A stretch of 64,000 bases of DNA, taken from positions 23,252,899 through 23,316,898 of the forward strand of contig NC_052394.1 of the NCBI RefSeq assembly GCF_009389715.1. Direction: 5' to 3'. The notes beneath the pieces were generated by a model. The model saw nothing but the letters and a program-made list of their open reading frames with translations, searched no databases and had not been told where the DNA came from. Made by a program: the position numbers and the translations under genes. This DNA is from Phoenix dactylifera (Eukaryota; Streptophyta; Magnoliopsida; Arecales; Arecaceae). This document shows positions 1,428-58,587 of this stretch, one piece after another (the first letter of the stretch is position 1; each line of letters begins with the position of its first letter).

Positions 1428-3434
1428 TTAACGACCACCAGGAACAAATGGTGATGAAAATGTTCTGTCTGTGCGATCAGTTGTAGATAGATCTGAGATC
1501 ACAAAATCGTCGAAGCATTCATCATATCCTTGTGCCGAAGTGCTGGTGATGAGAGCATCCGCTGACATAGGAGGGAGGGGAGCATCACCTTCTAAGAACT
1601 GCACGACTTGCCTCATGCTCGGTCTCGCCATGGGATCAGGGTGCGAGCAGAGCAAGCCAAGCGTCAGCACCAGCTCCATCTCCTTCACCACATACTCGTC
1701 TCCCAATACTGGATCCCTGGCCTCCAGAATCGTCCCCGTCTTCCAGCATCCTAGAACCCATTCCACCAGGCCCGGCACCTCCACCGACGGGTGGCATTCT
1801 ATAGGCCGCCTCCCACAGGCAACCTCCAATAGGAAAGCACCGAAGGCGTACACGTCGGAGCTCGTTGTCGCCTTGCCGGTCTTGCTGATCTCCGGCGCGA
1901 GATAACCCAGCGTCCCGACGATATGGGTGGTCTGAGGATTAGTCCCACGAGTGTGTAATCTCGCCAGTCCGAAGTCCCCTAACTTCCCATTAAATTCTGC
2001 GTCAATTAGGACATTGCTGGCTTTGATGTCTCTGTGGATCACCACTTGCTCCCACCCTTCATGGAGATAGTGGAGCCCGGAAGACACGTCCTTGATGATT
2101 TGAAACCTCTGGCTCCAAGTCAATGCCGGCTGCTTTCCTTGGAAGAGGAAGTTGTCGAGGCTGCTGTTGGGCATGTATTCGTATACCAATAGGAGTTCCC
2201 CTTCGCGCCGACAGTAACCAAGTAGCTGCACCAAGTTGCGGTGCCTCAGCCTGCCCATGCTTGCGATCTCAGCAACAAATTCCCTCATCCCTTGCCATGA
2301 TTCGTGAGATATCTTCTTCACTGCAACTTGGGTTGACGAAGAGGGCAGCACACCTTTGTAAACCCGACCGAAACCACCAAATCCGAGGAGGTTCTCTTCC
2401 TTGAAGCCTTTGGTTGCTTTGAAGAGATCCTTATATGAAAACCTATGAGGTCCGTATTCGTGTTCCCAGTCTTCAAGTATCTCTCCGTACTTCTTCCTCC
2501 TCCTCCTCAGAACAAAGAAGATCGCAGCTATGGGGATGAGCAAGAAGCCTGCTGCAGCTAAGGGCAGTGCAATAGTTAGAAGAAGATGAGATTTCTTCTT
2601 GGCGCTCTCTTGGTAAGGAAGTGATGGAAGCTTAGAGAGATTAAGCGGCTGGGCATCTCCGTTCAGGCTAAAGCTCCATCCCAGAATATAATGATGCGAT
2701 GTAGCTGCCCCTGTTGATGCGGAAAAGCCTACATACATGTCATCAAGGAAGACCGACGAGAGATCGACCTTCGAAGACAAAAGGGGAGAAGCAGGTTTAG
2801 GTGCATCGATTGGCGATATCGTAACATCCAGCTGCATATCCATGCCGTCGTACTCGATCCAAACCTGCATTAGGTCTCCGCTGATCAGCTTCAGACTCTT
2901 CGATCCACCACTCTTGCCGTCAAAATATGATACAGGAGATGAATTCACAGATATCAAGTTATTGATATCGATGCCGACATGGTTGTCATTGATGTCGTGG
3001 AAATCCACGGTCATGACAGTGTCGAGCTCGATGGCAAATATATGATTGCTAGAGTTTCCATTATCTGTCGTGTTGAAGAGGCCGAGATGCTGGCTGGGCA
3101 TAGCTCCAGCGAACTCCTTCGAGGGGGAGACAGCGAAAGCCAGGCCATGGCCGCAGACATCTGGATACTCCGGTATCATCGCAAAGACAAACGTAGTACT
3201 GAAGGAAAGAGGCTCGCCATTTGAAGAGTTCTTGAAATGGAGCAGCTCAGGGTGGAAGGCATGACCCAGTCCTGCCTTTGTGTTGTTGGTCAGCATCAAA
3301 AGCCCGCTGGAGGTGATCTGAGCTAAGCCGTTGAGGCTCAAGTTTGCATCGGTGAATCCATGGAAGATGAACTCATTGTCGAAGGAGGCTACCAATTTCA
3401 GTAGAAGGATCACGAGGAGGATCCTGGATACCAT
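1428..3434 (-). CDS. L-type lectin-domain receptor-like kinase, subfamily IV-like
   Basis: This is a single-exon gene of 668 residues starting at the ATG at 3434; the frame extends four codons further but only to a TTG. It begins with a hydrophobic signal peptide (about residues 1-17), followed by a legume-lectin domain (about 18-260), a membrane segment with a basic stop-transfer run RRRRKKYG (about 285-315), and a serine/threonine kinase domain (about 345-620). The glycine loop [11 protein letters not shown], the lysine motif [20 protein letters not shown] and APE are all present, so it should be an active RD kinase. Such proteins sit in the plasma membrane and link extracellular or cell-wall signals to cytoplasmic phosphorylation, often in immunity or stress. 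The sequence around [15 protein letters not shown] resembles the LecRK-IV/SIT group. The ligand cannot be told from sequence. No break is seen, and length and domain order are usual for the family. Confidence 0.93.
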
Positions 3435-6400
3435 GGCTGCATTCAAACATCATAGAAGTATTCCCACTTCTTGCTGGCCTTTATTATCTCTACTGGTTAA
3501 TTACCAGCTAATCGGACTTCATTCTGCCAACTGCTGCTTTACTAGGTCCACACACCGTCCGTGTTTGAAAGAGACTGGAAATTGGATCTCCGAACTGTAA
3601 TTGCACCATTTTTTACTATGCATCATAAAGTGATGTGAAGAACACAGTAGTGGTGGCAGTGGCAGCAGGGCTGGGGCGTGTAAAAGTCGCAGCTGGAACC
3701 ACGGAATGGAGGATTTGGATGAGTTGGTTTAGCATGAGACGAACGCTTGGACTTTTGGGGATCACCAATTTTATGCGTCAGGTCTCTCTCTAAAAAAAAA
3801 AAAAAAAAAAAAAATCATTGATGGCAACCTAGGAAATTAATATTTGAGGACCTACTTTGCCTGACTTTTCTTCGTCTGCAAAAGATTCTTGACGTGAAAA
3901 CAAGGGCAGCTATACATCTTCATCAACGTCATTTTATGAGTAGAAAAACTAGGGCTAACTATTTAGATTTTGGACTATTGGCATATGTGCTTCGAGAAAT
4001 GGTTCATGCAAAGACAGAGTATGGCACGCCTAATGGAAAAAGCGGCCTTTTAACTCGATTCTTCATAAGGTTCAACTCCTGTATGAATAGTATAAGCCCC
4101 AAGCTTCCTCTCATAACTCTCCGAACTTCTTCATAGCAGTTCTGTTTTGTAGCTATTTTCGAAGTAACAAAAAGAAAAGCAACGGTGGGAGCGGAGAGTT
4201 AGAGTCGAAAGAGAGATTTTTCAATTCCTTCGTCATCCAAAATCAAAAAATTGTCAAAATATTTGACTATTTACTCGTTTCAATATAAAGAATTAGTAAA
4301 TCAAATAATAGATAGTACACGAATTGGTTGGGAAAATAGATGAGTTGTTAGCCATAGAATATTATTCTTGGTAGACTTTAACCTAACCAAAACAATAAAG
4401 AAAGATTCAGAGAATTTTGCCCTATTTTTGACGAAGTAAATAGACCTAAGGGCCTTGATCCATATTTTTCTCATTAACGTAAAAGAAACCGATTCTTAAA
4501 TCTCTTTCATACTCATATCACATCGAGGTAATGTAGAAAAAAAAATGTAAAAATTCAATCCAATCTATTGTAATCGATTGTAATATATTGACTAACCAAA
4601 ACACGAGAAGAAAAAAAAATCTGACTTAGTGAATACTGCCAGAGAGAGTCGCAATACCATATGCTAAAAGGAAGAAACTTATAAAATGGCAGTGTGAAAA
4701 CTAAAGAAAATTGCAGCGGTTAAAACATTGCAACCTTCCAAATAGGAAACGGCTAATCCATTGGTATGCCAGAAAGTTACAAAAGTTGTTCCTTTAAACC
4801 AATCTTCTAAAATGAAAAATACTTAAATACCCAAGAAAGATGGTTATATAAAAGTAATATGTTGGAGCTAAATCCTACAGCTTCTTATTTATCGTGGCTT
4901 GAATCTTTTATGGCATATATCGATGCACAAGCTTTTTTTTTAATATATTTTTGGAGAGAGAGAGAATTGTTGTACGATATAATCGAAACCACCACAAGTA
5001 TACGAATGACACAATTATTTCTACGTCCAAGAGAGTAGCTGCTAATCTATCTCATGGCCAGATAGATAAATATAAGGACTAAGTTAGTTGATAGGATTTT
5101 TTTTTTTTTTTGTTTCTACGTCCCTAGACCGTGTCACACAGGCGGGATATGGAGGTACAAAATAAAAATGAAAGAAAGGGATGGGTTTTTCTCGCTTTCG
5201 GCCAGAAGGGCTGCATCCAAGCTTAGATACGGTATGGGGAGGAGGGTATCTTTTGTTCAACTATTTTCAGGTGGGAGTTATCCGGTGGATTGGATTCAAT
5301 AAGGATAGATTCTCCTCAACCACCAATAAGTGCTGAGACTGTTGCGAAGAATAACCAAAGAGCTGCACTGAAATTGGGCAAGACTCGCATTAAATCCGGT
5401 CTTATCATATAGACAGGCTGCCACAAGTTAGCAGCTCAGATGCAAAGTACAGGAGGCCAATCAACTTCAAGAGACGACGACGTCTTTTTTTTTATATATT
5501 TGGACTACGTACAGATAGCTACTGAGGATAGAGAACATATATATTAGTAATCTACGAGAGGCATGATTACTATGGATAGGTACTGAGAATACCAAAATAG
5601 AAAAATTATGATAGACATGACCCTAGTTCAAAAGTATGATAAGTTCATACACTTCATTGACTTAAGACATGAATTCAATTTATTTATTTTTTCTGGTGAA
5701 AACGATTTCAATATTATTAGAAGAAAAGAATTCCAATTGGATGGTCATCTTGTTTTATGAACTTCGGAAGAGTAATGCTAACTAGGCTCCAGGACACATG
5801 CCCCAAGCAAGAGCACATTCGGCTTTCTGGTAGAAATTAAAAGAGCATATAACAACGGCATGCAATTCTGCAATCAAACAAGCACTTGGGGTGAAATGCT
5901 TCATTGAATGGTTCTGTATATCTAAACCATGCAGTTTACTAGAGGAGATGGGAATTAAGATCGATCTCTGAAATCTATAGTGGATTGAGGTAAAGAGAAA
6001 GCTAGCTTGAGTAAGAGAACCAAAGGATAAGTTACATAGCAATGTTTAATTGGCATCATTGAAAAAACAAAAGGAGTAAATTTTCATGAAGAACTTCAAT
6101 TAGCAACATCCCACTTATAAATTACAAAGGGAAAAGAAAGCCTTACTACTAATTATGGTAAAATAGGTCCATGATATAATATCCTACCTTGATCAAGGTT
6201 ATGGGGTTAAGAGTATTTGAGGAGGGTTATCCTATTATGTAGGCAATTACTTACAAATCAAAGGTTTTTTTTAATATTAAAACAACCTCTTCAAAGGCAG
6301 CATAGCCATTCATTTACCGCTGTCTCTATAGAAAATTAAGCGGACCTAATTATGCATGTGGACAGGTTTTTGTACCATATACAATCGTATGATGACTTTC

Positions 6401-8991: not shown

Positions 8992-11900
8992 TTAAAGTGT
9001 ATATACGCAGCTTCCATCATCGCTCCTAGCCGTAGGATCGTAATTTTTAGCAGATGGATCGGTGCAGCCTTCTGGAACTGGCACATGGACTTGTTGGGCT
9101 GCTTGGCCTGCACCCAGGTAACAAACAGATAAGCGAAAAGCCCAATCTTATTTGCTGCCTGTGTATATTAAGGAAACAAGAAAAGGCTTTGTTAGCCTTC
9201 AGGAAGGACTAGTCGATCTAGAAGCGAGATGCAAACCTCCCATCAAGGCCCCTAGGATTAGAGTGCTAACCATAGTAATTTCCAGTCTTCATGGCATCCT
9301 GATTGGCATCTCCAAGTGCAGCCTCGCTCATGTACTTGTCCGCCAGCTGCACCCTCTTCACATTATCCTGCTCCATCACCAGCATCTTACCGTACTCCAT
9401 GAGCGTGTCCAGGGTCATCGTAGGCTGCTCAAATGTTGGTGCTCCTTCACGCGAGTTAACAAGCCTCTTTCCAACCTTATCAATTCCAATCTCTGAAATC
9501 CACTTCCTCACTTCATCATCATAGACTCTGGCCCGGAGGGCACCGAAGAAGTCTGCATACAAAGAGAGCAAATATCCATCATTCTTATCATGATTCTACC
9601 ATTTCAGTGCAGTGAAGAAGAGTTATTCCTCCCAACGTGTTCAAGAAGATTAGTGTAGTTTATTGAGATATGATGGTTTTCAAGGGGCTTACCAATGGAC
9701 TGGCCTGGGAAGGCATCGACAAGCTTGATGACATCTTCCTTGGGAACGTTGTCGGTCCTGAATATGCCCTGGCAAACGCCGATACGGTCCTCCCTGGTTG
9801 GCGCCCAGTAGAATTTTTCCATACGACCATCACGAATGAGAGGGGCATACAGGGTGGAGAAGTCGTTCCCAGTAACTATAATGGGGACGCGAGGATTCTC
9901 CTGCTTGTTGTACATGCCAGGGAGCTGCACATTGGTTGGGTTATCGGCGATGTTCATAAGGGTAGCGTTCACCATCTGATTGTTGACAGTATACTGGGTG
10001 GTGCCACCCATCCTTCCTGCTCCTGCATCAAGATCATTGATGAAGAGGCAGCACATCTTCCCCTTTCTAATGATGTCTGCCGCCTCGCGGTATCTTTGCC
10101 TGATCAACTTTGCAGGCTCTCCTGCATTCCCACTCTCCAATTCTCCAGCGCTCATCATGACAGGGCTGAATGGAAGAAGAAGCGAACATCCGGATAAATA
10201 TTGTGAATGGAAAGCAGCAACCACCATAAGATAAGCATTAGGGAGCATTGACTCGATTCTATAGAGGAAGATGTTTCCACAGATGAAGATATCAGAAAGG
10301 AATTCATTCACCATGCAATACATGCATGCATGCATGCATTGCACTTGCTCTCCAAACCGATGAGTGGGTTGGTTATTTGAGTCCTGGTTTTTCCCCCTCT
10401 CCACGTTTGAATTTTGCATGCTGGGAACCAGCAATTCCACGGCGCAGAGAGCAAGGCAATATCCAGTGAAAGTCTTATATGTGGGAATGCATTGAGTGGT
10501 GTGATGTCAAGCATGAACTTGAATCTATATTATAATTCAGCAATTGAAGGAGAGAATCATGTGAGAGTCTAATAGATCATGTTGTTGGTCATCGAGCAAC
10601 TTGAAGAACTAGCTGCATCCTGTCCTCTGATTGCTCGAGGAGATGATGAATGACCAAGCAGAGGGATAACTTCGACCTTGATCGAAGGAGATGGGAATCA
10701 AAGGGCACAATTTAGTGGGATCTCGAGTTCTGACTGTAAATGCTTCATCTGGTCGGGCAATTAGAGAAACCAGAACCTGGATCAGGTAGAAATTTTCTGC
10801 CTGATACAAAGAGATCCTAGATGGTTCCCAGATTCTCTGTGCTAGAATTTAAATTAAAATGGATAGGACGGTATAGGACCAGATGATAGTATGATAATTG
10901 AAGAGAAATTAGAAGGCAACCCAGGTTAGAGAAATAAGACATCTGATGTTACAAGGAACTGGAATCAAAGATTAATGAACTTACCTCAAAGAGAATATCT
11001 GTAGATTTTGTTCGGTTCTATCATCGAGTGAAGATACTATAGATGCAAAACAGAGTTACCACCCAGCTTCAGCATCATGACTAAACCAAGCGACTAGTTG
11101 ATTGATCTCTATAATTAGTTTAATAGATTTAAGAAATCATACTTTGCACATTTCAACTGTGCAGAAATCATTAGAACAAAGGTCCAGAAACAGGAAATAA
11201 AATTCTAATTTCTTGCAACCTGTAACTCAAACTAGAATCACAGAAACAGTCTTCCAATTCATATAAAAAGAGCAATCGACGGATCTTGGAAGACCAATGC
11301 CAAGCACTTATCGAAAGAGGCGGAAAGAAAAGCAAAAAGATGCACGGGGGCAGAACATAAGCAGGAAGAAAGACTCACTTGATCCCCATCTTGGCAAAGA
11401 CGAGTTCGCATTGGAAAGATTTCCCTTGACCCTTGCCACCCCAGATACCCAAGATGAGGGGAATCTGTCCAAAAGCCACCACCAAAAACATTTAGGTCCA
11501 ACCAACAGCAACCGAAACATAAATTAACCTGTCAAATTAGCTGTTTGGTGATACCTTAATGCCAGGCAGGTCCATGAAGTTCTTGCTGATGTGAACCACA
11601 AGCTTGTCCATGAAAGCTGGGGCTATGTAGAACCCATCCACGGTGTTGTCCAAGTTGTACCTGGAAAACCATAATACCAAGATCAGATAAGTATTCCACT
11701 CCTATACATTAATGAACCACGCAGCATCTAAAATATAGAACTAGAGCTCTTTCAGTTCCCTTACTGGCGAAGACCCTGGCTGATGTACTCATAGGAGCTC
11801 ATGACGGGGATGTGGGTGCCATCACCCATGGGAGCTTGGAAGAGGGAATCAACCAAACCCTTCCCTCTGGTGATATCTTGCTGGTCGTCGGATTCATCGA

Positions 11901-13381: not shown

Positions 13382-14770
13382 TTTTTTTTTTTTTTGGTAA
13401 AACGGCAATCCATTTCCACTAAATCAAAAAGTACATCCTGCTAAATCAGAGAAAAATAAACAGAGCAACAAATGGGGAACACCAGCTAGACTCGTCCAGA
13501 TGACGTCCCCAGCGTGGCGAGCCACATATGAGGCTACCCAGTCCGCAGCTCTGTTTACCTCACGATACACATGACCAATCTGGACAGCTAGCATCTCCTG
13601 AACTAGTCTGCGGGTATCTCGAATCAATGGGTGGCCGTCACCATATCTATCCACCCCCCGTATCCAGTCAATCACCGTGGCAGAGTCGCCCTTAATGCAC
13701 AGTCTATCAACACCCAGCACACATCTCGCATACCGGATACCCTCCCAAGCAGCTCGTAGCTCCGCCCCAATGACAGTCAAGCCTGGAGTGCTCCGACCAC
13801 CAGCTGCAATCAATCTGCCATACTGGTCCCTAATAACAAAGCCAACTCCTCCCGAAGCTCTATCCATCGCCATACCACCATCAAAATTCAACTTAAGAAA
13901 ACCAGGGGGTGGGGGTACCCAGAAAAGAGAAGCATACCTAGGCGCTGAAACAGCAGAAGAGGTACCCCAAATGTCCCTAGCCAACTCAGATGACGTCGAT
14001 GGAGTCACCAAACAGACCTCCGCTGCCTGGGCCATAGCTCTATCCATAACAATCCTCGGGTGCAACCCTCTCCCCTTGAACAGCCGTCCATTCCTATCCA
14101 GCCATATATGATAGGCCAGATAGGCAACTGCAACCCCAAACATGGCTGTGCTAGATCTCCTGGTGGAGTCCCTCAAGAATTGTAACAAATCCACCACTGA
14201 CTCCCACCTCGAGGGTAGGGCTGCAGATAAACAGCTCCAGATCTGTACCGCCCTAGGATATCGGAGTAAGACATGATGTATGGACTCCTCGAGATCCGGA
14301 CATACCTCGTAATACTGGGTTATCCTTACATCCCTCCTAACTAGAACGCACCTAGTCGGAAGGCAGCCCCAGGATACCTTCCAGAGGAAAAGCGCCACAC
14401 GAGGATGCAACCTCAGCCTCCAACCCGCATCGATCTGTCTGTCTGGCACCCTACTTATCCAAGAGTGAAGATCCCTGGCACTTTCTGCCGGTCGGCTCCC
14501 ATATCAATCTGTCGGGCCCCTCCAGTGATGGAACAGGTAAGGCCAAAACTCTCGCCGCTAACTGCTCTCCAAACGCCTCCCGAATCAGACTCTCATGCCA
14601 CCATCCCTCACCCGGAACAATCAGATCGCAGACCCTAAGCCCCTGTAATCTGTCCGTATCCACCAACGTCGACAAACGACTGATAGGAAAATCCGTCACC
14701 CAACTATCCTCAAGTACATCAATGGAACGTCCATCACCCACCGCCCATCTAATCGCTGGCAGCACCACAT
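13382..14770 (-). mobile_element. 5'-truncated LINE (plant L1 type) with RNase H domain
   Basis: On the minus strand about 14768-14455 reads RWAVGDGRSIDVLEDSWV-type sequence, the region after the reverse transcriptase in plant L1 elements. After a frame break, 14449-13424 carries the zinc-binding region (LHPRVALFLWKVSWGCLPTR) and an RNase H domain (LNFDGG, GAELRAAWEGI, KGDSATVIDWI, NRAADWVASYV). The reverse transcriptase and endonuclease parts are missing. The 3' end is TACC followed by a 14-base A tract on the minus strand (13382-13395). The long open RNase H frame suggests a fairly recent insertion. Clear target-site duplications were not found. Confidence 0.85.
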
Positions 14771-27753: not shown

Positions 27754-29187
27754 CTATGTTTTGCATGAAACCCGCAAGGACCCACGGCGCTGCTCCCCGT
27801 ACCAGCACACGCAGCTCAACCCAACCAGAACCTCGACGATCGCCGCCTCCGTCTTCTCCAGGTCGGAGAAGTGCAGCGTCTGAAGCATCAGCGCTCTCGG
27901 ACTTGGGTCGAATCGCTGCCTCCAGTCCATGTGCCGCTCTTCATGCCACCGAATCGTGTCACTTGCCACCGGTCCCAGCCATGCCAGTATTCTCTCCACC
28001 GCCTCCTTCCACCCTTGAGCCAACCTTCCGTCCATCGGCCCCCGCTCCTTCCAGCAAGCCCTCAGCTTCGACCTCACCATCGCCCGGAGCCCAGCAGGCA
28101 GCATTTCGTACAGCTCCTCCCTCGCCGCCGCCTCCCCCGCCTCCGGTTCGCCGGAGTTAGACCTTGTCGTCAACATCTTCTCAGCCAGTGCAATCGCGTT
28201 AGCGTATCGCAACGCTAGCCCGGCACCACCCACAGTGTTCGGTGCCGGCTGCAGTAACCTGCTCCAGTGTTTCGGCTCCGATTCTTTGGTGCGGAATATG
28301 GGGCAGGAATTTGGGATAATTAGGTGCTCTACCGCCGGTCTCTCAAGCGGACCTGACGAGTGCTTGGCTGGGAACCGGGAATAGAGTCGTAACTTGGGAC
28401 GGGCCGGAACGAAACTGGCACGAGATGCGCTGGGCGAAACGAGGACCGGCGGCAGCGTCGGTACGAACCGGCCGAAGACGGCGCAGATTCGAGCGAAAAC
28501 GCCGCAGACGGCTTCCAACATGAGGCGGACGGCCTTGTCGAAGCTCTGGTTCCACAGCGACTCCTTCCTCAGCCTCAAGACCTTCTCGCGCTGCGACTTC
28601 AGCTCGAGCTTCACCGACTCCGCTTTGCTCGGCTTCTGCAACGGTATCGGCCCGCTGTACCGGTCCCACTTCCGCTTCGACGACTCCAGCATGCCCAGGA
28701 CCTGCATCTCCTCGTATAATCTCGCAGTCGCCGCGACGTGTCGCTCCATGCTTCTCATCCTTTTCTCGACCCCTTTAAGGCTCACAGGGATCCGGTCAAG
28801 ATAGGCCGAGCCGGCCTTGAGGTTGGCGTAGACCCGGTCGAACCTTTGAGCGAGGGCCCCCTGGCACCGAGAAGCGAGGCGAGAGGCCGCGGCGGCGGCG
28901 CGGTCGAGGTCGGCGACGAATTCGGCACAGGCGAGGCGGAGGAGGAGGGCTTGGTCGGTGGAGTTGAGGTAGGCCACGCCCCGGGAGCGCATCGTTTCGG
29001 ATCGGAGTTTAAGGATTTCGGGATCGGAGAGGGACCGATGGAGCGACACGAGGCTGCACATGGCGCCCGCGGCCTCGAAGGCAAGGATCCCGATACCCGG
29101 GGCCTTCCCCCCGCCGGCCGGTTCGTCGAGCCGGAGGTCGAGGCACTCGCGGTCCGGACCGTTCCGCCATGGCTTCGGCACGACCAT
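27754..29187 (-). CDS. DUF3475 and DUF668 domain protein, PSI (PSK simulator)-like
   Basis: This is a single-exon gene of 477 residues with a true ATG at 29187. The N-terminal part (about 34-90) reads ILAFEAAGAMCSLVSLHRSL and SDPEILKLR, the DUF3475 signature. The C-terminal part (about 315-410) contains NTVGGAGLALRYANAIALAE, ELYEMLPAGLRAMVRSKLR and a tryptophan-rich block ending HMDWRQRF, the DUF668 signature. In Arabidopsis, PSI proteins with this layout promote growth and act with phytosulfokine signalling. The N-terminus is MVVPKPW, without the MGG myristoylation start of PSI1-type proteins, so it fits better with the intronless branch (At3g23160/At5g51670-like). The gene is very GC-rich compared with its flanks, common for intronless monocot genes. 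Biochemical activity is unknown for the family. Confidence 0.85.
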   Translation of the reverse strand: MVVPKPWRNGPDRECLDLRLDEPAGGGKAPGIGILAFEAAGAMCSLVSLHRSLSDPEILKLRSETMRSRGVAYLNSTDQALLLRLACAEFVADLDRAAAAASRLASRCQGALAQRFDRVYANLKAGSAYLDRIPVSLKGVEKRMRSMERHVAATARLYEEMQVLGMLESSKRKWDRYSGPIPLQKPSKAESVKLELKSQREKVLRLRKESLWNQSFDKAVRLMLEAVCGVFARICAVFGRFVPTLPPVLVSPSASRASFVPARPKLRLYSRFPAKHSSGPLERPAVEHLIIPNSCPIFRTKESEPKHWSRLLQPAPNTVGGAGLALRYANAIALAEKMLTTRSNSGEPEAGEAAAREELYEMLPAGLRAMVRSKLRACWKERGPMDGRLAQGWKEAVERILAWLGPVASDTIRWHEERHMDWRQRFDPSPRALMLQTLHFSDLEKTEAAIVEVLVGLSCVCWYGEQRRGSLRVSCKT

Positions 29188-30728
29188 AGACGCGGATATG
29201 TTATTCCGGGATAAGCGGTTGTTTCGGGATCTGTTAACGCTATCGTTGGTGTTTCATTTGGTGGGGTGGCGGCGAGAGGGGAGGCGCGGGGTATAAGAGG
29301 AGGGAGGGAGTGAGGTTGCCGTTTTCTGAGAGGCTTCCCTTGGACGCGCTTTGATACAGTTGGATTACAGGGAATGAACATGGAATGGGAAACGAAGAGG
29401 AGAAGGTCGTGCAAGATGCCGACTGCTTGGCGTTTAACGCCATGTCGCTAATCACTATGAAATGCTTGCTATGATTAAGTTATCTAACCAGGCAGTGCCA
29501 TGTGGTACGTGGTAGATACTTTGTTGAAAGGATAATTTATTCTACGTTTACATGTATATCTTTGCCAAGCCTGTGACTCAGAATTTAAGCGAAGTCTATG
29601 CGGAAGCCTCAAATAGCTTAGGATTGTGACATAGGAAAACGAAATGGCAATAACCAGCGATGGACTTGCTTTTCCTTTCAACCAAAGGGCGATAACCAGG
29701 TAAAGAAATAGCAGCAATCAATCAATCAATTGATGGACTTCTTAAAGCCTTTTTGACTTGTTCATTAAGCAAGGGACTGCCACATTTTCTTGCATACACA
29801 TTACATGCAACACCAGCCGGGAAATTGGGTGGGTACGACTCACTCTTTTTGGTTGATGTAGGAAGGGACTGGGAGGATGAGGTGACTCGGCATGTACACT
29901 GCGTGTGGGGTCCGCGGTTGATGGGCATACGTTGGGAGTTCGGTCAACACAATCTTTGCTTGATTTCTAGCTTTTTCCCTTGGGATTCGCAGCCGGTAGA
30001 GATCGCTTTTGTGAGATCCAAAGAACCTTCCATAAGGGGGGGTATTGTTGTGGTCTGAATTCATCCACTGTTACTGATCAAATTAGTTGACCAGAATATC
30101 GTACAGAGAATCCGATCAAGCTACCAATTTAAGCAATTGATCAAGTTGCCGAACAGAGCAGATGACTATAGCAGGCAATCAAATCATTTGACCTAACCGA
30201 CCGGTCAGACGGACTAACCGCTGTATATTTCAAATTCAAAGCATATCTAAGACTGTTTAAGTCCACACATAATTTACAACCATGGTGAATCAAACAGATA
30301 GCTTGTCTTGTGAGAGTATAGCCAAGTCTGCATGTAAATAATGCAAGAAAACGTTCGACGTAGACTTTTCTATTCTACAGGCTCGGTGAATGCTTCGCTG
30401 AGGGATTTAGAAAGAAAAAAAAAATTGCCAATGGAGAAATTTGCAGTAGAAATTATGACCATCTGATTTCTGATGTTAGCCTATTCTGCAGTAGAAATTT
30501 GTAGTAGAAATTGACCGTGAAGTTCAACGGGAGATTAGCCCATTCTGCATAGGATTTTGGGCGGGTAAAGAATATCTTGTCCCAAACGAAAGCCCGGCTT
30601 GTTATCCACATGCAGGCCCAAAGCTGCTCACATAAACAAATATAAAATAAAACCACCAACTTTACGAAATGAGCCTTTGGTTTCGGATGGCTGACAACAG
30701 TTTCCTCTGTGTTCCAACCTAAGAATCT
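29188..30728. other. Intergenic, including the upstream region of the PSI-like gene
   Basis: The first about 250 bases are GC-rich and purine-rich, as expected for the 5' UTR and promoter of the minus-strand gene. No other gene is recognised. Confidence 0.4.

Positions 30729-35864: not shown

Positions 35865-35951
<87 letters not shown>
35865..35951. repeat. (AT)n microsatellite, about 85 bp
   Basis: Over 40 uninterrupted AT units. The sequence ATATATAATCCGAAA occurs just before (about 35839-35854) and directly after (about 35944-35958) the run, so the repeat probably grew within a duplicated AT-rich patch. Confidence 0.95.
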
Positions 35952-35953
<2 letters not shown>

Positions 35954-37120
35954 CCGAAAAAAAACATGCAAACGATTGCATGTGAATGCGAACAAACAAG
36001 AACAAGTCCACCGGATACCAAATATATGATAAAGATGCCTGTTGGCTGCAGTACAGTAGTACGTGAACAAGAAAGCTAAGACTCACGCCTACTTGCATCA
36101 AGAAAGAATTAGATTGACGAAGACGCAATTGACTCGAGTCGTGTTAGGTCTTTTCCAGGAATATATCGCCTTTACGTTTCGCCTTTTGTTACAGTTGCCA
36201 ATCTACCTCACTCGAATATAAGAAACAGATGGAAATGGTAATCAACCAAACTCCAAAAAGTAATTGGGTCCTGAGAAGTTGCACCACAAGTTAACACTTG
36301 CACTCATTTACAGAGAAAGTGAGCATCTGTTCCTATTCATTTTCTTAATAGAAATGGTTGATGAGTCTCCATTTGGGTATATATATGCAGAAGGTTTCTT
36401 GTGGCCACCTTGTTTTCTTGAGAAAGAGGGCGTACATAAGACTCGATATCGACGGAAACATAGCATAAGACATGCAAAAGACTCCAAGAGTTGTCAAAAA
36501 AGCCAAGCTATATCAAACACCAATCATCAAAGCCCCACCACAGCCTCCATGCCTATCCAAATTCAAGCTCCTTAACTCCTCGAAATCTCAACCCCACCCC
36601 TTAAAGCTCCACGGAGATGAACCCGACAGGTTCCTCATCTTTCCTCTCTTCCATCGGTCCTCTCAGCCAAGACCACAAAACTGACTTCTTAATTTTTTTT
36701 TAAAAAAAAAGAAAACGGAAAAAGAAAGGAAAAGAAATTCTAAAACCAACTTCTCCTGATCTAGCTTTGAAACCCATCGAATAAAATGAAATAAAATATA
36801 TAATAATAACCAATATAAAGACAGTCGGCTGATCTATAGAATTAAATAGCAAAATAATTAAAGAAGAAGCAGCAGCAGAGAACAACAGACTCAATTGAAA
36901 CTTATACAAAGGCATGGATGGGAATAGAAAATAAAGGTGACATTGCATTGAAACAGTCTAATTCTACAGCAATGCATGCGCAGTTTACAAAATAACACAA
37001 GCATTTAAACAAGCAAACCGAACCAGTGATGATGATAGCATTGATAATGGAAGGAAAGCAATAGAAATATTTTTCCCTTTCGTGGCAAATTATATTTAGA
37101 AAGAGAGAGAGGGACTTATA
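35952..37120. other. Spacer and probable AHL 3' UTR
   Basis: No gene is recognised. About 36700-37120 is AT-rich and probably includes the 3' UTR of the minus-strand AHL gene. Confidence 0.4.
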
Positions 37121-38107
37121 TTAGTAGGACGGTGGAGGACGAGGAGCCGCGGAAGCCCAAGCGCCGAACACCTCGTGTGTCATTTGACCGTTCGGCAGCA
37201 GATTGGGTGGCAGGTTATACAGCGGCGGCATCAACGACGGGTCGGCCGCTGCCGACCCTGCATGAGATGTCTGCTGCGACGCCGATCCGTTCCCTCCCGG
37301 TGGGCTCTGCTGCAAAGCCGCCATTCCTTCCGCTCCCCTCGGTGGCGCCGCCTCCGTCTCCTCGGCCTCCTCGTCCCCGAGCGGCAGCCGCTCGTACATG
37401 GCGTTTGTGAACGTGGCGGCGATCACCATCACCGGTCCCGACGCGACGAGTTCCCCCACGACACTCCCCCCCACCACCTGCCCCTGCCCGCCGGCGAAGT
37501 AGACGGTCAGCCCGGTGGAAACCGTCGGCGAGGGCTCCGGGAGGAAGGCCCCGGACAGGGAAAGGATCTCGAAGCGGCCGTGGAGGGTGACGACGGTCCC
37601 AGGCGGCGCTGCTGGCTGGCGGAGAGTGACGTTAGTCACCACGCCGCTGCCGCTGAGAATGGAGATACCGCGCTGCCGCCGGCGAGCAAACACAGCGACG
37701 GCGTCCATGATGTCGGTCCCGCTAGCGATCTCGAGGACGTGGGATCGGAGGGCGTTCGGGCTCTCCTTGGTGATAATGATAGGCGGCTTCGGCTTGTTCT
37801 TCGATCCGGGGGGGCGGCCGCGGGGGCGGCGTCCAGGGGCGCCGCCGCCGGTGGATCCGCCCTCGGCGACATCGAGGCTACCAGCAGGGGACTGGTCATC
37901 TGCATTGGCGTCGTCGTCGTTGCTTGTGTGGTTGTTGCTGCCGCTGCTGTTGGTGGTGGTAGGGTTAGGGTCTTGGTCTGGGCGGTGAGGACTGAGGTGG
38001 GAATTGGTGGGGTTGCGGAGATGGAGAGGAGAGGCCGAGGTCGAGGAGGTGACGGCCCGGTCGACACCTCCCATGGTCACGCTGCCTGCCCACCACCGGT
38101 TCGCCAG
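37121..38107 (-). CDS. AT-hook motif nuclear-localized (AHL) protein with apparent CTG start
   Basis: Counting from the CTG at 38107, the product has 328 residues. An AT-hook (residues 92-109: [18 protein letters not shown] by motif) is followed by a PPC/DUF296 domain (about 118-240) with [19 protein letters not shown] and the GRFEIL core at 177-182, a type-I AHL. Such proteins bind AT-rich minor grooves, form trimers and regulate growth and chromatin in the nucleus. The family normally begins MANRWWAG; here the frame reads LANRWWAG with CTG in the ATG position, in a strong context (A at -3, G at +4). No in-frame ATG lies upstream before a stop. The next ATG is at 38074 (MGGVDRA). Either CTG initiates, or the 38074 ATG does, or a 5' intron ending in AG at about 38108 supplies another start. 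The gene is GC-rich, otherwise intact, and apparently intronless. Confidence 0.88.
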
Positions 38108-39345
38108 CTTTCCTTCTTTGAGTAGACCAAAGAGAACAACAAAAGCAAGGAAAACTATACTAGTTAATTTTCTGGTCACTTATTTCATTAAAAAAAAAAA
38201 AAAAGCTTTCTGGTCTCTTGGTTATAGCTTGCCGCTTCTGCTACTCTTTCATCAATTTATTTCTCTACCATGTGATATAGATTCCAATTTCTTTTCTATT
38301 CCTTGCTTTCCTGCTAGTATTTCTTCATGGAAGAAACTAAAGAGTTATAGATCCAAGTGCAAGCTTATCATTTCGCTTATCTCTACTTCATTCCAAAATT
38401 TGAGCTCCCCTTAGATTTCCTCTCTTTTCTTGGAGGGATCAAGTTAAACCAGTTGATTAAACCAGATCTCCCAAAATATTCCACCACAATAGAAGGAGAG
38501 CAGGAGAGGAATAAGATTATATTTGATTAGCTGAAAGCCGTCTCTACGAATTGAATCAGACCACGAGAACCCTACCAGTTGCACCCTTAGTAAAAATCCA
38601 AACGTAAAAAGGGAAGAATCATAGCTCAGACTAATTCCAAAACGCACCTTCAAAACTGTAGAGATGCACCGATAATTCTTGAACTGCTGGATCGGGAGTT
38701 TGAAGACTCTGTGTCTCGGCTTTCTTTCAAAAGTAAACCTGTGAAGGCTGTGGCCGTGATCTTTATTTATCCCTGCTTTCTGACTCTACTGCTCGTGGCA
38801 AGTAGAGGATATATATACCACGGCTCTCCCAGGCTGCCGCTGCCGCAGCTGCTACTTCTGCTGTGGCTTAATATCCAGTCATCCCCTCTCCCCCTCTTCT
38901 CTCTCGCTCGCTCTCACCGTTTTGATATGTTATCACCAGCATAAATAATTCATTAATCCTCTTCCCTGGATTACTTATGCTATGCCTCTTAAGCCTTCGT
39001 TTGGATTGTTTGGATGCTGGGATCCTGGTTTTCTCCGTCCATCCTCTCTCTGCAAGTTTATTAAAGGGGGCTGGGGTGGGGGAGTGGGGTAACGTGCGCA
39101 TGGGAAAGTGGGAGGATGGTTGGAACACGTCACCTTCTCGAGTCCGGACGCAGCATCGAGTGGAAGGTCGGAGGCGGAGAGCATCAATTAAAGGACAGGG
39201 CCCACGTCCCTGAAACACTGCTCCCTCCCCAGCTTAGGACAAAATCCTTGATCACCGTTTCTAACCCACCGTCCACTAATACATTTTCTGCACGTATTAC
39301 GCACATTACGTGTGCCTTTTTTAGGGCCATCAACGCCTGTCTTGT
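38108..39345. other. AHL upstream region
   Basis: On the minus strand a TATATATA box lies at about 38809-38818. A pyrimidine-rich tract directly precedes 38108, and donor-like sites (for example GAAG/GTGCGT at about 38647) exist, so a 5' UTR intron is possible. No other gene is recognised. Confidence 0.35.
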
Positions 39346-55450: not shown

Positions 55451-56290
55451 CTATTTATCCTTCGGAAGATGTCCGAGCCTAAGTTCAAGATCAAATTCTT
55501 CATCAGGGCAAGGACAAAGTTTGAGAAACTCGGAGTGGAGTTTTTGTTGGCCGTCTGGAGCAACTCCTTTCAAGAAAGAACATGGATCAGTCCGCTGTCT
55601 CTTGCTACTAATGCTCTCCTCCTCATCGTTGCCTGGATTTCTTGAAAACCGAAAGCCTACTTCCCTGAGCTTCAGATTCTCTCTTCCAAGTTTCGATTCT
55701 GGCAAAGTTAGCTGTCGAGCGGTCGTTGGATCTTTGAGGAATTGAGTCGCAGTGAAGAGGGATTTCATTGGATTCTCTTGAACAATGGTCGAAGAATAGG
55801 GAGGAGAAACCAAGGAGTTTTGGCTATTCTCTCTGGTGGATGCTGCTGAAACCCTGGGAGAGACAACTGATGCTATAGCATCACAATTAGGGTTAGGGTT
55901 GCCGTTGCATGCCGGAGAGCCAACCAGCTGGTCCGGATACCATGTGCCTAATGGTGTGCAGGGACTGTGGTGATGATGCTGATGATTGCCATGGCTTTCA
56001 CCGGTGGGACTTGAAGATTGTTTAAGCCTCGCCCTGTCCCTCCGGTGCACGTTCATGTGACCACCAAGTGCTTGGGCTGATCGGAACTCCCGTCGACAAA
56101 AGCTGCATGAATAGGATCTTGGAGGCCAGACACAACCACCCAAGTGGCCTGCAAAGTCCTCCGCAAAGGCCTGTTCTTCCCATGACTCACTGTACAAAGA
56201 GCTGGTGGAAATTTTGTAGATTGAGGAGCCAAAAATGGGTCTCTCAACCGATTTCCTTCGAGTGCACATCCAATTCCTTTTTCGCTCCAT
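55451..56290 (-). CDS. One-finger QALGGH C2H2 zinc finger with EAR motif (SUPERMAN/RBE/ZFP10-like)
   Basis: This single-exon gene has 279 residues. Of two ATGs, 56302 and 56290, the second has the better context (GCCATGG) and gives MERKRNWMC, a typical family start. The finger [20 protein letters not shown] then [15 protein letters not shown] uses Cys62, Cys65, His78 and His82, and is nearly identical to SUPERMAN. A His/Pro-rich stretch follows, then a basic SSKRQR segment (possible nuclear localisation signal), and the C-terminus carries [10 protein letters not shown], an EAR repression motif. It should act in the nucleus as a repressor in floral or lateral-organ development, by analogy with SUPERMAN and RABBIT EARS. 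A (GA)n run at about 56612-56631 lies in its upstream region. Confidence 0.9.
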
Positions 56291-58587
56291 GGCGCTGTGC
56301 ATGGATGAAGAAAAAGGAACCAAGGGAGAGAGAGAGACTTGAGCTTGGAAGAAGTTAGATGTTTGCTGTTGGGAAATAGTTCAAGGAAAGGTGGATATGG
56401 ATGGGGAGGAAAGCATCTCTATCCTAGAGCCATAGATGGGTACGGGAGAATCTGGAGGGTAGGAAAAAGCTTAGCTGAAAAAGTCTTCTCAAGGTAGTTG
56501 GAGTGGTAGGGTTCTTGTATTTTTGGCTGGAGCGAAGGCATACCTAGTTTGAACTACGGTTCACTTTTGTACTATTAATATACAGTTTTGCTCTGATAGC
56601 ATATTGAAAAAAGAGAGAGAGAGAGAGAGAAAAGAATTGTATTTTTTGTTGTCAGTCATAATATATAGGAGCAGCCTTTATATAGAGACTAGGAGGCAGA
56701 CGAAGTTTGGACTAAATTTGGCACAAGCAATCACAAATTCATCAAGGTAAAATTTGATAAGGCCGATTAAGTTTGGCATAATCAATCAATGGACCTAATC
56801 AATTATATGATTTTAAGATTGAAATCGCAAGAAAGTTTATGTTTCCATGAGAAACAAATTGATTTGTTTTAGTACCGGGTGTCTAACATCTTATTATGGG
56901 TAGCTTTAAACACTAAAGCAGGGATTTACAGCCACATTTTCATAACCACGATGGTTGGTTGCTATGGCCCCAATGATCGAACAGCTGAAACAAGGGCCTA
57001 CTTCTAACTACCTAATTGTCACTCTCACAGCTGTTCCTCTTGGACCATTCTTTCTTCAGAAAAGGTTCTCCTTGCACATTACCTTGAGTCTAGTTTTACC
57101 AGGTCATTTCAGATTGATACCCAGTCCACGGCATGCCAATTCTAAAATCATCAGTGTTAGCAAGTGCTGATGACTCAAAATGCAGCCATTAAATGGCAAA
57201 TTATTTATAGTTTATTACTTTGTTCTCATACTTATAATCGGTAAATATTTGAGTACAATCTCGACAATTTCCGGCGGGATGAACAAGCCAGTACTCAGGG
57301 ATTAATTATATGCAGAATTCCACTGAAATAATGTAATACTGCTGTCCTTCCTTCGGCGACGTCTCATTTGTTTTATATAAACGTCCAATCATTCTCTGTA
57401 TTAAAACGACATACATGCAATAAACTAATGAGTAACTTGTGCCACTCAACCTTCATTTATGGGGTTTGTTTTGTTCTCGTAATCTAAATGAGAAGAATGA
57501 TTTAGTCATCTTCGAGGCTGTGTCATTACATTGGGTCAATTGAACCAATTAAATAACCTTGCATTTGTTGTAGTGGTTGTATCTTGTGACCCTTGTCTTC
57601 CCCTTCCTCACTGACTTTTTGAATTTTTTAGCTGTTCACTTAAGTGATTTCGGAAACAACCGTTGATCAAATAGCCATTGTTGATAGTAACAATAAGTAA
57701 TTAAATTATCATAATTACTCACTGTATATCTCAAATAAAAAAAAAAGAATTACTCACTGTACATTGTGGTGATGGAACCGAAGCTTGTGTCTCCTTGGAA
57801 TCTCCAATTAATTAAAAAATGAACAACAGAATATCTGCCATGGCTCCTCAATTAAGGTGCAAGATAGGATGGAGTGAATACTTTGCATCTCAGTTGTGCA
57901 CCCAGCCCTTATCGATTCCAGAGAATTAGAAAAATTACAAGGGCCAAACACTCCCATAAAAGATCAACTTCCACTTCAATGAAGGCCAGCTCCTTGTTCT
58001 TCATGACTAAATATACCAGTTAAATTATCCTCTACTCATAGATTCTATCTAACATGTATTCATTCTCCACTTGTTTTGCGCGAAAGAAGGAAGAAAAGAC
58101 CCTTCTCCTCAAATTTAATCTCCTGATTTCCCTACAAAGAAACATTGATAATGATGAAGGGGACGTGAGACATCAAATGTTACAACTGGTGGCGTGGATA
58201 TGAGAGTAGAGTCGGAAAATATTTGGGCTGAGACATGAAACTGAAACACTGGATGATATATAATGATTGTTTAATAGAATTAGCATAAGAACCAAAAGAT
58301 TCACTATCCCATGTGTACTGAATTCAAAAACATGCCCCTTGAATTCAACCTTTCTTTGTGGGCCTTAAGCGGCAGTATTTTCCATACTTCCCTTAATATT
58401 TTAACTGACCCCTTGGACCCGTATTTAGATATCCTTCGTACTCTGCAACAATCTCAATGAATAACATCCTTCAAAAGGTAGGTTGTATCCACTTTTAGAT
58501 TGTTCGCTTTGAGAGTAGTAGGTAGTGTTGCAGTCCCACCCTTTAAAATAAAAGAGGAAGACTCACACACTCACACAAACACATATG
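56291..58587. other. Upstream region of the second C2H2 gene and intergenic sequence
   Basis: Pyrimidine- and purine-rich tracts near 56300-56640 probably belong to the 5' UTR and promoter. The rest is AT-rich with no recognised gene. Confidence 0.35.

Follow-up and report, generated by a model that had tools for sequence, protein, structure and literature searches.

The window analysed here, a 64,000-nucleotide stretch of Phoenix dactylifera DNA (contig NC_052394.1, positions 23,252,899 to 23,316,898), carries on its minus strand a type-I AHL gene whose long form very probably starts at a CUG codon, judging from its sequence and that of its paralogs. CTG at the expected start is common to 12 AHL loci of this genome, and the window gene is no exception among them. 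An earlier note on this DNA had described a single odd gene, its frame LANRWWAG opening on CTG, in a family that starts with ATG, and had offered three explanations: a true non-AUG start, a 5′ intron providing another start exon, and a recent loss of the conserved start. The first is well supported by the sequence, the second is not supported, and the third is rejected.

The AHL gene of the window and its CTG codon

Type-I AHL proteins are defined by one type-I AT-hook preceding the PPC domain. The predicted window protein (328 amino acids from CTG) matches PF03479 at residues 121 to 234 (E value of 1.9e-22) and has, N-terminal to that domain, one AT-hook at residues 93 to 109, assigned to type I by eye. 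By its sequence, the gene is an intact type-I AHL, a predicted DNA-binding regulator with AT-hook and PPC. The coding part is a single open frame (37121-38107), and an intron is possible in the 5′ untranslated region (5′UTR). The best match in a PDB search with the AHL was a bacterial protein (E value of 0.041), and an Rfam scan of the window gave no matches. The features of the locus are as follows.

37121..38107, minus strand: AHL coding sequence of 328 codons beginning at CTG, with its TAA stop at 37123-37121
38105..38107, minus strand: CTG, probable CUG start codon, A at −3 and G at +4 (sequence, and the same codon in 12/12 WW-type loci)
38090..38104, minus strand: codons 2 to 6, A-N-R-W-W, conserved; UGGUGG is message +13 to +18
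38072..38074, minus strand: first in-frame ATG (ACC ATG GGA), possible leaky-scanning start of a form 11 residues shorter
38180..38182, minus strand: upstream in-frame TAA, followed by 24 sense codons with no ATG up to CTG
37793..37831, minus strand: AT-hook (sequence)
37406..37747, minus strand: PCC/PPC (DUF296) domain (profile match)
38116..38647, minus strand: putative 5′UTR intron, from donor-like GAAG|GTGCGT at 38647 (kept in paralog L032) to acceptor-like AG at 38117-38116 (alignment and enumeration)

The earlier note described the locus accurately. From 38107 to 38072 the minus strand reads CTG GCG AAC CGG TGG TGG GCA GGC AGC GTG ACC ATG, and the CTG at 38107-38105 lies in the near-ideal context claimed for it, A being found at −3 and G at +4. 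The open frame extends from 38179 to the terminal TAA, and an in-frame ATG-AAA-TAA stands just 5′ of the CTG (ATG at 38188-38186, TAA at 38182-38180), with no ATG in the codons between that stop and the CTG. The next ATG, at 38074-38072, entails the loss of 11 residues, as the note had stated.

CTG at the expected start of WW-type AHL loci

A PF03479 search of the 773-Mb genome (2391 contigs) gave 52 matches, the best 30 of which were made into loci; 28 of these 30 (L001 to L028) have an open frame with an AT-hook. L013 and L014 are equal in score and N-terminus and were treated as copies. Two of the 22 matches without a locus (L035 and L045) entered by DNA similarity, and the other 20, partial or weak, were left unread. 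An LA(N/S)xWW N-terminus was found in 12 loci, spread over 11 contigs, when [LM]A(N/S)xWW was searched: the codon before Ala is CTG in all of them and ATG in none. The supposition that the family has ATG at this position is therefore false for this genome, where none of these loci has an ATG-initiated MAN.WW N-terminus; the window gene is one of 12 CTG loci and not a lone oddity. CTG is present in 11/11 apparently intact WW-type genes, the twelfth locus, L028, being frameshifted.

The sequence surroundings of these codons are equally uniform. In each of the 12 loci, the 9 to 42 codons that separate the CTG from the preceding stop include no in-frame ATG. A purine at −3 with G at +4 flanks 12/12 of these CTGs versus 6/80 of the in-frame CTG codons found elsewhere in the 12 frames. 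The WW-type genes thus combine the absence of an upstream in-frame AUG with a near-cognate codon in strong context. The remaining 16 of the 28 AT-hook loci have no WW motif and carry an in-frame ATG before the AT-hook, the true start of L027 being unsure. As a pattern control, the DNA pattern NTGGCNARYNNNTGGTGG (leading N ignored) was found at 121 places in the genome, and the preceding base was read in 30 fetched loci: six AHL genes all had CTG, and the 24 non-AHL loci had ATG (9), CTG (5), GTG (5), or TTG (5). Among those listed of the other 91 places, the AHL positions were the remaining six of the 12 genes plus L045. A profile of 11 CTG AHLs (without L028) found only two weak bacterial loci in genome contigs of other species and none in viral contigs.

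The 12 loci form three subgroups. Subgroup 1 (L009, which is the window gene, L017, L011, and L015) has the sequence LANRWWxGSVxMGG or MGE, in which codon 12 is an in-frame ATG. In subgroup 2 (L002, L007, L003, and L008) the sequence is LANxWWxGH(L/F)GLP, and the first in-frame ATG lies at codon 32 in L002 and at codons 97-98 (1-based) in L003, L007, and L008, where the AT-hook, near codon 69, has already been passed. The members of subgroup 3 (L016, L021, L022, and L028) share LA(S/N)KWWERVDVSA-MAG, with the ATG at codon 14; 11 nucleotides (nt) before it, 4/4 loci have an out-of-frame ATG flanked by T at both −3 and +4. A tree of 27 loci (without L014), computed from the AT-hook plus PPC region, puts all 12 CTG genes on one side of a branch, requiring a single change of start; L028 sits on a very long branch.

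This distribution also decides against a mistake in the assembly and against a point change that recently removed the ATG of the window locus. Only one identical copy of the locus was found, which would fit either event, but the same CTG recurs across 11 contigs in 12 loci, among them the closest paralog (L017/L032) and members of all three subgroups. Both were ruled out, and the probability left to them is negligible.

Several relatives of these genes were seen alongside. The broken copy L045 likewise reads CTG; L045 (C11:5535454 region) and L028 (C11:6570071 region) are broken subgroup 3 copies that lie on the same contig, separated by about 1 Mb, both with CTG-LASKWW. L048 and L035 are degenerate relatives of the window gene, and the L048 alignment begins about 100 nt after the start, with 1-nt and 13-nt length differences. 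In the MAGLDLG-type AHLs (L005, L006, L012, and L018), the starting ATG looks equivalent to the internal ATG of subgroup 3 (MAGMDSG), as if the CTG-WW segment had been lost.

Alternative start sites and flanking sequence

If the AUG at 38074 were the sole start of translation, the LANRWW segment would be former coding sequence that is now 5′UTR. The context of that AUG (ACC ATG GGA) is strong, and an in-frame ATG before the AT-hook is what the 16/28 AT-hook loci without the WW segment have. The pattern of conservation around the CTG argues the other way. Ungapped identity was compared between the 36 nt upstream of the CTG and the 36 nt after it, in pairs that are not independent. Upstream and downstream identities were 0.50 and 0.89 within subgroup 1, 0.47 and 0.81 within subgroup 2, and 0.61 and 0.96 within subgroup 3, and they were 26% and 61% between subgroups 1 and 2. 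In codons 2 to 6, subgroups 1 and 2 differ 32 times at third positions, 8 times at second positions, and never at first positions; in comparisons with subgroup 3, many differences fall at second and first positions (28 and 16 for subgroups 1 and 3, 24 and 16 for subgroups 2 and 3) and come from codons 3 and 4. Within subgroups, then, conservation climbs sharply at the CTG, and codons 2 to 6 look constrained as protein while the flank 5′ of the CTG diverges. Further, CTG-ANxWW is kept in three of the four subgroup 2 genes, which have no in-frame ATG before the AT-hook; as their sequences stand, a downstream AUG cannot give the full protein in L003, L007, or L008; in the window gene, an AUG follows only 11 codons after the CTG. 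We consider a start at AUG 38074 alone improbable.

A spliced 5′ exon could provide an in-frame ATG, and some sequence features would suit it. In subgroup 1 the upstream sequence is T-rich ahead of AGs, and the donor-like GAAG|GTGCGT, about 540 nt upstream, is common to the window gene and its closest paralog. When combinations of ATG, donor, and acceptor with GT-AG introns were enumerated up to 900 nt upstream in the 12 genes, unfiltered combinations existed in 12/12 (11 in the window gene), and a pyrimidine- or T-rich 15-mer lies within 60 nt of the CTG in L008, L016, and L021. The window gene, however, has no ATG between a TATA-like stretch (about 38809-38817) and the donor-like site, although its transcript start is unsure because the TATA-like stretch is not conserved in the paralog. 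After modest filters, two combinations were left in the window gene, both relying on an ATG at −835, where the aligned paralog has a gap; L016 retained two, L017 two, and L022 five, and 8/12 genes none. The flank from −40 to −4 is 8 to 43% pyrimidine in the eight genes of subgroups 2 and 3, and type-I AHL genes are described as intronless (PMC4209074). The candidate was rejected for want of any combination common to the paralog and of any at all after filters in most of the genes, and a spliced ATG exon, the intron option of the earlier note, is very improbable.

Other features of the window lie apart from this question. An antisense open frame of 341 amino acids (37100-38125, plus strand) stands opposite the AHL gene and is probably a by-product of GC-rich codons, and a long (TA)n run (about 35868-35945) lies downstream of the gene. 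Pfam matches identify the following further frames.

1431-3449, minus strand: legume-lectin receptor kinase frame
9607-10506, minus strand: AAA/Rubisco-activase-like exon
13427-14503, minus strand: reverse-transcriptase-like remnant
27757-29253, minus strand: DUF3475/DUF668 protein frame
55454-56380, minus strand: C2H2 zinc finger, below the curated cut-off

Probable initiation at CUG and its significance

We propose that initiator tRNA would read the CUG of the window gene as Met to yield (M)ANRWWAGSV..., and that this codon may be the inherited start of a WW-bearing AHL clade, represented here by 12 loci in three subgroups, and not a lesion. Scanning complexes that pass the CUG may reach the AUG at 38074, because its context is strong, and would then produce a form without the first 11 residues. 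Subgroup 1 would share this two-start layout, as would subgroup 3, with a weak-context out-of-frame AUG in between, and the three subgroup 2 genes that have no in-frame AUG before the AT-hook would depend on the CUG. A non-AUG start may also restrict or adjust how much AHL protein is made.

RNA structure downstream of the CUG could assist initiation. Weak and non-AUG starts are reportedly used more when a hairpin lies at about +13 to +17, and hairpins are predicted in AGAMOUS and a tobacco RpoT (PMC2001202). The mean folding free energy of +13 to +72 was −25.0 kcal/mol in the 12 CTG genes versus −5.6 kcal/mol in 11 ATG AHLs (a set leaving out L014, taken as a copy of L013, and L020, L023, L024, and L027), with mean z-scores against single-base shuffles of −1.20 and 0.08, respectively. 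Mean pairing at +13 to +18, in windows to +80, +110, and +150, was 0.66, 0.80, and 0.88 for the CTG genes versus 0.56, 0.59, and 0.53 for the ATG genes, with overlapping ranges. With the 150-nt window, the onset of the first stem falls between +9 and +15 in 12/12 genes; with the shorter windows it comes as late as +36 and +23.

Several observations weigh against initiation at the CUG or against its common ancestry. Synonymous shuffles gave a mean z-score of −0.46, i.e., the downstream structure is no stronger than expected; it therefore follows from protein and codon use, with no sign of further selection, and a selected hairpin was rejected, leaving the structure as a possible aid only. At least two ATGs of any frame lie in the 400 nt 5′ of the CTG in 12/12 loci (six in the window gene, from −284 to −81) and would be reached first by scanning ribosomes if those stretches are in the mRNA; if the putative 5′UTR intron from 38647 to 38116 is real, all six of the window gene are removed. 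Out-of-frame ATGs also occur between the CTG and the first in-frame ATG in 7/12 loci. Support for a single CTG clade is weak (53/78), and the contrast between upstream and downstream identity is modest between subgroups 1 and 3 (0.36 and 0.47) and between subgroups 2 and 3 (0.33 and 0.41). L028, apparently frameshifted, has no Pfam domain in its frame and a partial domain in another. Invariance of the Leu codon is not decisive as proof of a start, as single-codon columns occur elsewhere: across 11 genes (L028 left out), one codon only is used in 2/11 invariant Leu columns and in 10/77 other multi-codon invariant columns. Finally, the type-I, Clade-A proteins AHL15, AHL19, and AHL20 of Arabidopsis, with AT-hook, PPC, and a MANPWW N-terminus, are ATG initiated where the 12 loci here have CTG.

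Initiation at CUG has precedents in plants. Main open reading frames with non-AUG initiation and conserved coding sequence in 5′ leaders were reportedly described in Arabidopsis by van der Horst et al. in 2019 (in RNA). Among near-cognate codons, CUG is the one most often seen as a start in plant initiation profiling (PMC11062462, PMC8770321). The CUG start of Nuphar advena RpoTp was demonstrated by green fluorescent protein fusions and a CUG-to-CAC change, and a CUG start is likewise given for tobacco RpoTp and a non-AUG start for AGAMOUS (PMC3022604). Like the window gene, RpoTp of Nuphar and tobacco is a nuclear plant gene with a CUG start and upstream stops; unlike it, RpoTp encodes a plastid-targeted polymerase and is a single gene in each case, not part of a paralog set, and the first downstream ATG is about 318 nt away in Nuphar RpoTp versus 33 nt in the window gene. 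Arabidopsis AGAMOUS resembles the CTG AHLs in its predicted downstream hairpin (PMC2001202) but starts with ACG rather than CUG and is a single gene of another family. No report of a non-AUG start of an AHL was found in the literature searched, although one may have been described earlier. The terms “AHL” and “AT-hook” are absent from the main text of two Arabidopsis N-terminal proteomics papers (PMC8770321, PMC5461538), and “start codon” and “N-terminal” are absent from the text of two AHL family papers (PMC4209074, PMC12958825).

A broader proposal, which we advance tentatively and which may well fail, is that CUG is the ancestral and selected start of angiosperm WW-type AHLs, kept through several duplications as a built-in translational throttle. 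In two subgroups it would additionally provide a switch between isoforms with and without the WW N-terminus, and ATG would have taken its place later in the Arabidopsis members. If CUG is indeed ancestral, many AHL models that start at a downstream ATG would lack a functional N-terminus.

Should the long form indeed begin at CUG, gene models that allow only AUG would give these AHLs a wrong N-terminus, and the conserved WW segment may be missing from constructs that begin at the downstream ATG. The plant genes known to have a non-AUG codon as sole start are, in the literature surveyed, isolated examples. A whole clade of developmental regulators with a common CUG start would offer a natural system in which to ask what maintains a non-AUG start.
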